From NCBI GenBank assembly GCA_937992175.1, contig CALKLF010000053.1, positions 1 through 41,914 on the forward strand: a stretch of DNA of 41,914 bases. Reading direction: 5' to 3'. Each line of letters begins with the position of its first letter. Positions within the stretch are counted from its first letter, which is position 1. Source of the stretch: an uncultured Fimbriimonadales bacterium. Lineage in GTDB: Bacteria > Armatimonadota > Fimbriimonadia > Fimbriimonadales > GBS-DC. Below the pieces are notes generated by a model. The model did not search any database, was not told where the DNA came from, and saw only the letters and a list, made by a program, of their open reading frames with translations. Shown one piece after another: positions 18,186-21,472 of the stretch. A program made the translations under genes and the position numbers.

Positions 18186-20342
18186 CTACTTCACCATCGC
18201 CCGCAAAAATTGCCCTGTGTAGCTTGCATCGCAGGCGGCGACTTCCTCTGGCGTTCCCTCCGCCACAATCAGCCCCCCCGCATCGCCCCCTTCCGGTCCC
18301 AAATCGATAATCCAGTCCGCTGTCTTGATTACATCGAGGTTATGCTCTATCACAATCACCGTGTTGCCCACGTCCACGAGGCGGTGCAGCACGCTGAGCA
18401 GCTTGCGCACATCCTCGAAGTGCAGTCCCGTGGTGGGTTCGTCCAGAATATAGACCGTGTTGCCTGTGGCGCGTTTGCTGAGTTCGGTGGCGAGTTTGAC
18501 GCGCTGCGCCTCGCCACCGGAGAGCGTCGGCGCGGGCTGCCCTAGCCGAATGTAGTCCAGCCCCACATCGTAGAGCGTCTGCAGCTTGCGGGCAATCGCA
18601 GGGAACGGCGCGAAGAACGCCAGCGCTTCCTCCACGGTCATATTCAAGACATCGGCAATCGTCTTGTCCTTGAACTTCACTTCGAGCGTCTCGCGGTTGT
18701 AGCGTTGCCCCTTACACACTTCGCAGGGCACATACACATCGGGCAGGAACTGCATTTCGATCTTTATCATGCCGTCGCCGCGGCAGGCTTCGCAGCGTCC
18801 GCCCTTCACATTGAAGCTGAACCTGCCGGGCTGGTAGCCGCGCGCGCGGGCTTCGGGCGTGCCAGCGAACAGCTCGCGAATCGGGTCAAACACGCCCGTA
18901 TAGGTGGCGGGGTTGCTGCGGGGGGTGCGCCCAATCGGCGACTGGTCGATATCAATCACCTTATCCACAAACTGCAGTCCGTTGATATGGTCATGCTCGC
19001 CCCAGATGCGTCGCGTGCCGTACACATGGTACATCAGGCGAGGAAACAGCGTCTCCTGAATCAGGGTGCTTTTGCCCGATCCTGACACGCCCGTGATGCA
19101 CACGAACAGCCCCAGCGGGATGCGCACGGTAAGGTTCTTGAGGTTGTTGGCGCGCGCGCCGTAAAGAACCAGCCAGCGTTCGGGGTGCGGTGGACGGCGG
19201 ATTGCTGGCACTTCGATGCGCCGCTCGCCCGACAGGTACTGCCCCGTGAGGCTGTCGGGGCAGTTCATCACATCCTGCACCGAACCTGCCACGACCACCT
19301 CGCCGCCGTGCTCGCCTGCGCCAGGTCCCAGATCAATCACATAATCGGCGGCGCGGATGGTCTCCTCGTCGTGTTCGACCACCAGCACGGTGTTGCCCAG
19401 GTCGCGCAGGCGTTGCAGCGTGTGAATCAGTTTCTGGTTATCGCGCTGGTGCAGCCCGATGCTAGGTTCGTCCAGCACATACAGCACGCCCATCAGCCCG
19501 GAGCCGATTTGGGTGGCGAGGCGGATGCGTTGCGCCTCGCCGCCGGAGAGCGTCGTCGCCGCGCGGTCTAAGGTCAGGTAGCCCAGCCCGACATCGAGCA
19601 GGAAGTTCAGGCGCGTGCGCACCTCTTTGAGGATACGCTCGGCGATGGTGCGCTCGCGCGGCGTCAGTTGCGCTTCTAAATCGGCGAACCAGCGCGCCGC
19701 CTCCTCGATGCTCATCGCCGTCACTTCGGCGATATTCTTACCCCCGACCGTCACGGCGAGGCTCTCAGGCTTGAGTCGCTTGCCCTGACAAACGGGGCAC
19801 GGGCGCGTCGCCATAAACTGCTCCAGCTCCTGCTTGATGTATTCGCTTTCGGTCTCCTCGTACCGCCGCTTGAGAATATTAATCACGCCCTCGAACTCGG
19901 TGTCGATGTAGCGCGTGCGTCCCCAGCGGTTGCGGAACTCGACGGTCACATTACCCTTCGTACCGTACATCAGGGCGTGGAACTGTTCGGGCGAGAGGTT
20001 TTGCAGGGGCGTGTCGATGGTGAAGCCGAGCCGTTTGGCGACGCCTTCAAACATCGCCAGTCGCCAGTCGGTTAGTTCGCCGTCGCGTTTCACAAACGGG
20101 CGCAGCGCGCCCTGCCGAATCGAAAGGCTGCGGTCAGGCGCAATCAGCTCGGCGTCGAACTCGGTTTTCGTGCCCAGCCCGGTGCATTCGGGGCATGCGC
20201 CGTAGGGGCTATTGAACGAGAAGTTGCGTGGCTCCAGCTCGCCCAAACTGACGCCGCAATCGGGGCAGGCAAAATGCTCGGAAAAGTGCAACTCGGTATC
20301 GGGCGCGACAGGCTCTCCTGCAACGAGCAGCGGTTGAGGCAT
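18186..20342 (-). CDS. uvrA: Excinuclease ABC subunit A, lacking the N-terminal quarter
   Basis: UvrA scans DNA for damage and loads UvrB in nucleotide excision repair. This copy has 718 residues against about 940 normally. Present are the zinc-binding CPDCG...CPECTGLG and CPVCQGKRL, signature 1 ([19 protein letters not shown]), Walker B1 ([16 protein letters not shown]), Walker A2 ([10 protein letters not shown]), the CEACRGDG...CEVCKG zinc module, signature 2 and Walker B2 ([16 protein letters not shown]). Absent are Walker A1 and nearly all of the UvrB-binding domain; similarity begins at LLVAGEPV, directly after the ATG. GGTATAAT ends 6 nt before that ATG, so the shortened frame has its own leaderless promoter. 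The frame is open further upstream (to 20612), but that translation is not UvrA-like. Possible explanations are a rearrangement with a full copy elsewhere, a split gene, or a functional truncated form. Confidence 0.85.
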
Positions 20343-20348
20343 AACAAG

Positions 20349-20369
20349 ATTATACCCATCGGGTATAAT
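20349..20369. promoter_or_regulatory. Palindromic divergent -10 boxes (ATTATACCC-ATC-GGGTATAAT)
   Basis: A perfect 21-bp palindrome places GGTATAAT on both strands. The minus copy serves the truncated uvrA; the plus copy would start a transcript near 20376 leading to the ABC permease gene. Confidence 0.6.
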
Positions 20370-20375
20370 CCTGTA

Positions 20376-20565
20376 TCCTGCCGTGTGCGTGACGCCCGAG
20401 GTGGATCGAACCGTCGCCAATCTTGGCAGGGAGCGACGGCTTGACTGAGTGGCAGCGTCGTGACCGCGACGAATCGCGAAGCGAGCCGAACCTCCCAAAA
20501 AGGAACCTGGGGTTCGCGACCCCAACGGCGCACGGCACGGCGGGGAAATAAACAGGTTTTCCTGC
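20376..20565 (+). ncRNA. Candidate structured leader RNA upstream of the ABC permease
   Basis: No gene on the plus strand explains this 210-bp stretch. It can fold as a multi-branched RNA: an outer imperfect helix pairs about 20378-20396 with 20526-20543 (GCCGTG...CACGGC), an inner helix pairs GAGGT (20398) with ACCTC (20490), and it encloses the hairpin CCGTCGC...GCGACGG (20411-20439), itself containing GCCAATCTTGGC, and a second stem CGTCG...CGACG. Then follow TGGGG-TTCGCGA-CCCCA and CAGG-TTTT-CCTG. It matches no riboswitch class I can recall. It could be a cis-regulatory leader or an independent small RNA. Confidence 0.35.
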
Positions 20566-20587
20566 CTCCGCAGCGAATTCTTCCTGT

Positions 20588-21472
20588 GTGAGTCGGGAGC
20601 TGCAGCGCACACTCTACGGGCATCTGTTCATCCTGCCGTGGCTGGCGGGGTTTCTGCTGTTCACGCTTTATCCCATCCTCGCCACACTCTATTTCAGTTT
20701 CACGGACTATAATGTGCTGGGCGCGCCGCGCTGGGTGGGCTTGCAGAACTATCAGAGCCTGCTCGCCGACCGCGACTATTTCTGGAAATCCGTCGGTAAC
20801 ACGCTGTTTATCATGATTGAAGTGCCCCTGAGCATCGTGTTGGGGATTGGACTGGCGTTGCTGTTGAACCTCTCGTTGCGGGGTCAGGCCGCGTATCGGG
20901 CGCTGTTTTATCTGCCGTCCGTTGTGCCTGCAGTGGCGACGGCGTTTTTGTGGGTGTGGGTGCTAAACCCGCAGAACGGATTGGCTGCGCCCGTGAACGC
21001 AGGGCTGAGTCGGCTCGGACTGGTGTCTATCAACTGGTTCACCGACCCTGCGACGGCAAAGTGGGGCTTTATCGTGATGGACTTATGGGCGATTGGGGGC
21101 GTGATGGTGATTTATCTGGCGGCGTTGCAGGGCGTGCCGACCCACCTGTACGAGGCGGCGCGCATCGACGGCGCGCGCGGCTGGCAACTAATCCGGCATG
21201 TCACCCTCCCGCAAATCGCGCCCGTGATTCAATATATGCTGATTATCGGGGTCATCGGCGCATTTCAGTATTTCACCCAGACCTATGTCGCCACGCGCGG
21301 GGGACCCGAAAACAGCACGATGTTCTACGCGCTCTACCTGTTTCAGAACGCCTTTGAGTTCTTCCGTTTCGGGCACGCCTGCGCGATGGCATGGCTGCTG
21401 TTTCTGATCACCCTGCTGGCGACTTATGGGATATGGAAAGTGTCGCTGAGTAGGGTGTTTCAGGATGGGTAG
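20588..21472 (+). CDS. Sugar-type ABC transporter permease (MalF/UgpA-like)
   Basis: The 294-residue protein is a complete inner-membrane subunit of a carbohydrate ABC importer: the start [20 protein letters not shown] and [10 protein letters not shown] are typical of MalF/UgpA-type permeases, six helices follow, and the EAA loop reads [20 protein letters not shown], the coupling site for the ATPase. The start is a GTG at 20588 without a good Shine-Dalgarno sequence. No substrate-binding protein, second permease or ATPase lies nearby: the downstream DNA is a broken hicAB. The gene is therefore an orphan whose partners must be elsewhere. The long structured leader suggests regulation at the RNA level. 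Confidence 0.85.

Follow-up and report, generated by a model that had tools for sequence, protein, structure and literature searches.

Between a minus-strand uvrA-type gene and a plus-strand gene for a carbohydrate-type ABC permease, the window (the whole stretch of 41,914 nucleotides analysed here) contains a segment, positions 20376–20565, that is rich in nested complementary sequences. What does this segment encode, and does it belong with the permease gene that follows it? A first-pass annotation had read it as a structured non-coding RNA acting in cis, possibly a new leader of the permease. The structured, non-coding part of this reading stands, whereas its novelty and its attachment to the permease do not. 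The plus-strand segment is almost certainly a single-copy, free-standing 6S RNA (ssrS) gene of about 170 nt with estimated ends at 20376 and 20545. Judged by its sequence, the locus is an ordinary 6S RNA gene that had gone unrecognised, the 6S kind itself being long known.

The segment folds stably and matches the 6S RNA family

The predicted fold of 20376–20565 reached −91.9 kcal/mol, against a mean of −72.0 (sd 4.5) for shuffled sequences (z −4.41), and none of the 200 shuffles folded as well. All three elements described in the first-pass annotation appear in this fold, namely the outer helix (20377–20396 with 20527–20544), the inner arm (20429–20496) and the TGGGG-TTCGCGA-CCCCA hairpin (20508–20524).

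Rfam at the gathering level returned no match anywhere in the window; the first-pass annotation had likewise seen no known riboswitch signature. The scan is blank because the locus scores 32.3 bits with the 6S model RF00013, under its gathering score of 46.4 bits, which is a database threshold and not a biological trait. When the 501 bases from 20200 to 20700 were searched, RF00013 aligned full length, over model positions 1–187, to 20372–20550 of the plus strand (32.3 bits, E 6.9e-5), and among the 4227 Rfam families it was the sole one matching this interval up to E 5. In whole-genome searches of the window's genome (G000; 2.83 Mb in 133 contigs), RF00013 gave nothing at E <= 0.001; we take this to reflect loss at the first-look filter, the same locus scoring 32.3 bits when presented alone. 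The blank genome searches were the reason for four further tests of the 6S identity.

Covariance models were used in both directions. Model R2, with an RNAalifold structure, was made from 21 Armatimonadota 6S loci drawn from the 30 best-scoring RF00013 loci of the phylum; they come from other families, none of them from Fimbriimonadales. R2 placed its best match in the window at 20372–20550 with 63 bits and E 1.8e-14 (runner-up E 0.06), and in the whole genome it gave one match at E <= 0.001, the 6S locus (E 1.2e-12). As RF00013 had picked the sequences of R2, the test, although independent of the window, still depends on Rfam. Conversely, model R1 was trained on the window's family, with 16 sequences that include the window itself and those of G015 and G017. 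It was applied to an outside set of 34 RF00013 loci (4 from the search of relatives and the 30 best-scoring of the phylum search), where it recovered the RF00013 place in 33, with E <= 0.01 in 32 of them. Thus, the searches in both directions identify the RNA as 6S, and the claim that it is new has to be withdrawn.

A blastn search with a 261-bp stretch of the window matched 14 of 60 other genomes (G015 with 69% identity, E 6.8e-10). Identity ceased at about 20545 in 10 of the 14 relatives, which places the conserved end of the RNA there and not at 20565.

A rod-shaped RNA with covarying stems

6S RNAs are rods made of a closing stem, a large central bubble and a long apical arm, and the predicted fold of the window's RNA has this shape; its length of about 170 nt is slightly under the 6S range of roughly 180–200 nt. 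The 5′ strand of the closing stem (20377–20396) pairs with the 3′ strand (20527–20544), the 5′ side of the central bubble extends over 20397–20428, and the apical, or internal, arm (20429–20496) carries a GUGGCAGC-stem-GAAUCGCGAAGC motif (20449–20481) shared with Armatimonadota outside the family. A hairpin on the 3′ side of the bubble, UGGGGUUCGCGACCCCA, occupies 20508–20524.

Covariation among the collected homologues was evaluated in alignment A3, a MAFFT alignment of 16 family sequences for which the structure was the window's own fold minus one small hairpin. In A3, 95.4% of 843 cells were paired and 21 of 53 pairs had changed on both sides, and neither value was reached by any of 500 shuffles. 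As a control, the partner was slid by 1–3 columns, which brought pairing down to 39–45%. The both-side changes were found in the closing stem (5 of 18 pairs, with 99.3% of cells paired), in the apical stems (14 of 24 pairs in helices 3–6) and in the small 5′ hairpin. The 3′ hairpin was paired in 98.2% of cells, with both-side changes in none of its 7 pairs across the 16 sequences; it is conserved, but covariation is no proof of it. A wider alignment, A5, had both-side changes in 34 of 46 pairs; its rows, 4 of them antisense, had been fitted to the structure. An RNAalifold fold of alignment A2 (20 sequences from four families) had 31 pairs, of which 20 showed a both-side change in at least one sequence; we preferred A3 to A2 because the apical arm is poorly aligned in the latter.

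These changes also bear on the idea that the segment is a dispersed repeat or other DNA-level element, or else an unrecognised coding stretch extending the minus-strand uvrA gene at its N-terminal end. The uvrA frame does stay open upstream through the RNA region (ORF 18186–20612, minus strand), as the coding version would have it. This open frame is, however, no evidence of coding, because homology to UvrA does not set in before residue 16 in the protein beginning with the ATG at 20342, so the earlier statement that the segment has no convincing coding frame stands. Moreover, the changes are compensatory on paired columns, and the uvrA part adjoins the RNA in 5 of the 11 RNA-bearing genomes of the genus (it is on another contig in 5, and none is listed for G004). 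The RNA is single-copy in the genome, so it does not match a repeat, and no plasmid match was found. Both candidates were rejected on these grounds, and we consider their chances negligible.

Across the bubble, CGAACC (20407–20412) can pair with GGUUCG (20511–20516), and this helix shows compensatory changes by lineage. Many other Armatimonadota 6S RNAs have UUUUGAGCC/GGUUCAAAA at this place, in contrast to the CGAACC/GGUUCG of the window. The outermost pair was C-G in 20, U-A in 19 and G-C in 5 cells of A5, an alignment fitted to a structure that holds the helix and containing the 4 antisense rows. It is not a new element, because the Rfam consensus line already has a helix there. The bubble helix and the 3′ hairpin are mutually exclusive, since 20511–20516 overlaps 20508–20524; with the helix forced, the predicted energy was −85.1 kcal/mol, against −87.0 kcal/mol for the free fold. 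The hairpin is thus predicted in the free RNA, as parts of PMC8876501 describe for B. subtilis 6S-1, but in the window it competes with the bubble helix. According to this modelling, the competition of the helix with such a strong hairpin may be a special feature.

A predicted promoter at a near-constant distance

An independent 6S gene would have a housekeeping promoter of its own, and a predicted −10 box is present in front of the RNA. The plus-strand TATAAT noted in the first-pass annotation is indeed there, within GGTATAAT at 20362–20369. The predicted 6S promoter (20341–20369, plus strand) comprises a weak −35 sequence, ATAACA (20341–20346), a 17-nt spacer and the −10 sequence TATAAT (20364–20369); in a pattern scan of the window this combination had 10 of 12 matches. 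Of 20 sequences, 18, among them the window's, have a −10 box with at most one mismatch (15 of them an exact one) whose end is 6–9 nt upstream of the conserved CCTGC start. A conserved −35 box was not found, the best candidate having 2–4 mismatches in each of the 20 sequences, and neither was a plus-strand terminator for the 6S gene. Taken together, the computation shows homology to 6S RNA, a rod fold under covariation and a −10 box at near-constant distance.

Positions 20348–20370 form a perfect 10-bp inverted repeat, GATTATACCC-ATC-GGGTATAATC, which amounts to two back-to-back −10 boxes. One of them would serve the 6S gene and the other lies on the minus strand, 6 nt upstream of the uvrA ATG, so that an mRNA from it would be leaderless. 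The spacing between the two halves differs in G008, G009, G010 and G011; because of this variation among relatives, the repeat looks like two promoters and not like an operator.

Inside the 6S gene, the minus strand has a hairpin followed by a T run (20497–20525) that resembles an intrinsic terminator. The A run that makes this element is kept in the 11 sequences of the genus, but not in G015 or G017. The element might stop antisense transcription.

The RNA does not stay with the permease gene

The neighbouring permease gene (20588–21472, plus strand; GTG at 20588) lies outside the RNA and encodes a carbohydrate-type ABC permease (PF00528, E 1.9e-17); its score with the GlcT model NF040931, 101 bits, is below the cut-off of 360. 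The start of the gene, on the same strand and about 42 nt past the 3′ end of the RNA, invites the view that the RNA is a riboswitch or attenuator that responds to a ligand and regulates the permease as part of one shared transcript. The permease is directly downstream of the RNA in 7 of the 11 RNA-bearing genomes of the genus as well. A cis-acting leader would be expected to remain with the gene that it regulates, and across relatives the RNA did not. The RNA and the permease orthologue sit on different contigs in G003, G009 and G011 (with 543 bases left beyond the RNA on its contig in G011), and G001 lacks a close orthologue (best 36%). In the five other genera of the family, no permease relative was detected within 1.5 kb of the RNA (tblastn, E <= 1e-5). 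With R1 and R2, each genome yielded a single RNA locus, so a second copy was not found at the separated permeases. The end-to-end match to 6S RNA, and a sequence identity that in 10 of 14 relatives stops at the 3′ end of the RNA (20545), argue against a leader too. We therefore abandon the assignment as a leader of a sugar ABC permease, which we regard as very unlikely, in favour of a free-standing 6S RNA gene.

Read-through from the 6S promoter into the permease gene may still occur, because the permease directly follows the RNA in those 7 of 11 genomes; the permease would at most be a lineage-specific neighbour and a passenger of read-through. In G004, the permease orthologue beside the RNA (locus L016, about 1272–1274) is in two pieces in different frames.

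In the other genera of the family, the neighbours of the RNA include a T2SSE ATPase (G013, G016), Uma2 (G014) and rarA (G017). Genes for rarA or ygfA are typical neighbours of 6S RNA genes in other bacteria, and neither is a direct neighbour of the window's copy. At 16 of the 34 outside loci and, within the family, in G017, rarA follows the RNA within about 200 bases and in the same orientation. The window differs in this respect from other Armatimonadota, as its 6S gene lies between a uvrA part and the permease gene. Passages of PMC8414754 report that rarA adjoins 6S in lactic acid bacteria, where it is upstream of 6S, and in B. subtilis, and according to PMC9130861 the neighbours of 6S follow no pattern common to all bacteria.

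The neighbouring uvrA gene is split

The divergent gene on the other side (18186–20342, minus strand; ATG at 20342) encodes the C-terminal part of a split UvrA, corresponding to positions 243–924 of the TIGR00630 model. The N-terminal part (model positions 1–239), which we take to contain the first Walker A motif, is encoded by an ORF on another contig (G000:C15:9450-10166, plus strand, in L152). UvrA in the window's genome is thus made from two separate genes, neither of which contains extra sequence of intein size. Among the 18 genomes of the family, the C-terminal part was listed in 15 and the N-terminal part in 13; an unbroken gene covering 1–924 was present in G015 alone, and neither part was listed for G002 and G004. 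In the single-contig genome G010, the two parts are about 1 Mb apart. A literature search on split uvrA found no report; a search on UvrA gene fission and excinuclease was not empty. The split uvrA gene may be more unusual than the 6S gene beside it.

6S RNA genes in Armatimonadota

In 101 genomes (the window's own and 100 relatives), RF00013 found 10 at E <= 0.001, and 6 of these were over its cut-off. The window's-family genomes over the cut-off were G015 and G017, where R1 takes the same loci, both belonging to its training set. Of the genus, 13 genomes were searched and 11 contain the RNA; not one of the 13 passed the RF00013 cut-off, and R2 recovered all 11. For Armatimonadota as a whole, RF00013 gave 105 of 291 genomes at E <= 0.001 and 92 of 291 over the cut-off.

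In the order Fimbriimonadales, R1 found the RNA in 16 of 113 genomes, all in the window's family. R2 found it in 20 of the 113, consisting of 16 of the 18 genomes of the window's family, 3 of family f5 and G018 of family f2; the two missed in the window's family are 65% and 69% complete. Under strict filters, no genome of family f3 was matched by RF00013, R1 or R2, and among the misses that were listed (a part of all misses) many f3 genomes are 97–99% complete. The 6S RNA of f3 is either absent or further diverged. A literature search for 6S RNA in Armatimonadetes or Fimbriimonas, with the broad survey Wehner 2014 outside its reach, yielded nothing beyond a paper on streamlined genomes of acidophiles.

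Comparison with known systems and a proposed mode of action

The window's RNA shares with other Armatimonadota 6S RNAs (RF00013, ssrS) its length, the closing stem, the central bubble spanned by a helix, the apical GUGGCAGC...GAAUCGCGAAGC and the strong model match in both directions. With the 6S RNAs of E. coli and B. subtilis it has the bubble-bearing rod and the 3′-bubble hairpin in common; in contrast to them, its sequence has diverged below the Rfam gathering score and its projected product-RNA start has no adjacent adenine.

Such divergence from the Rfam consensus, together with a bubble sequence and a predicted product-RNA start unlike those of well-studied cases, could be taken to mean that this is a polymerase-binding RNA akin to 6S but of a separate kind, or a 6S RNA with an altered target. 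Ms1 RNA of Actinobacteria is an example of the former, being RNA-polymerase-binding and structurally related to 6S. However, Ms1 as described in portions of PMC9130861 is about 300 nt long, has extra hairpins at both ends and binds the core enzyme, whereas the window's RNA has about 170 nt, a closing stem formed by its own ends, and no extra 5′ or 3′ hairpins. Ms1 RNA itself was rejected for these differences. Besides, RF00013 alone scores up to E 5 among the Rfam families, and the models built in both directions tie the RNA to loci well above the 6S cut-off, which makes a relative distinct from 6S, or an altered target, highly improbable, and a true 6S RNA the preferred identification.

The 5′ side of the bubble is the predicted template for the product RNA (pRNA). 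The pRNA start of E. coli was projected through the RF00013 alignment onto C20415, from where the template reads toward lower coordinates. The projected pRNA, 5′-GACGGUUCG..., has GG at positions 4/5, as do the pRNAs of E. coli and further Gram-negative bacteria according to sections of PMC8414754. The same sections have an adenine adjoining the known pRNA starts. The neighbours of C20415 in the window are U and G, with no adenine beside it, and as this usual adenine is missing we only infer the start at C20415.

By analogy with 6S RNAs elsewhere, the RNA would be made from its own sigma-A-type promoter and be plentiful in stationary phase, and its rod would imitate an open promoter and occupy the housekeeping RNA polymerase holoenzyme, so that transcription would be dampened when nutrients are short. 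Upon the return of nucleotides, the polymerase would begin near C20415 and copy a short pRNA from the bubble's 5′ side. This synthesis would free the 3′ side (20508–20524), the hairpin would form and the lower stem would open, and the polymerase would let go of the 6S RNA. The cycle of capture, dampening and release is inferred from the 6S biology of other bacteria, for which passages of PMC8876501 and PMC8414754 describe open-promoter mimicry, a held polymerase and release on copying of the pRNA.

The predicted folds allow a further proposal, a 6S RNA with two states, which we offer tentatively and think rather unlikely to hold. Across Armatimonadota, the covarying bubble helix would keep the template shut, and in the window's family the 3′ strand could alternatively fold into the stable UGGGG...CCCCA hairpin. 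A switch between closed and open states, about 2 kcal/mol apart in the prediction, would then be built into the free RNA and would set the ease with which the polymerase escapes.

That a further lineage has 6S RNA is as expected. The analysis removes a false lead to a new riboswitch and shows that the 6S gathering score of Rfam misses a bacterial genus in which a phylum-specific model recovers the RNA. A bubble helix whose sequence changes by lineage while its pairing is kept bears on the closure of the template before pRNA synthesis.
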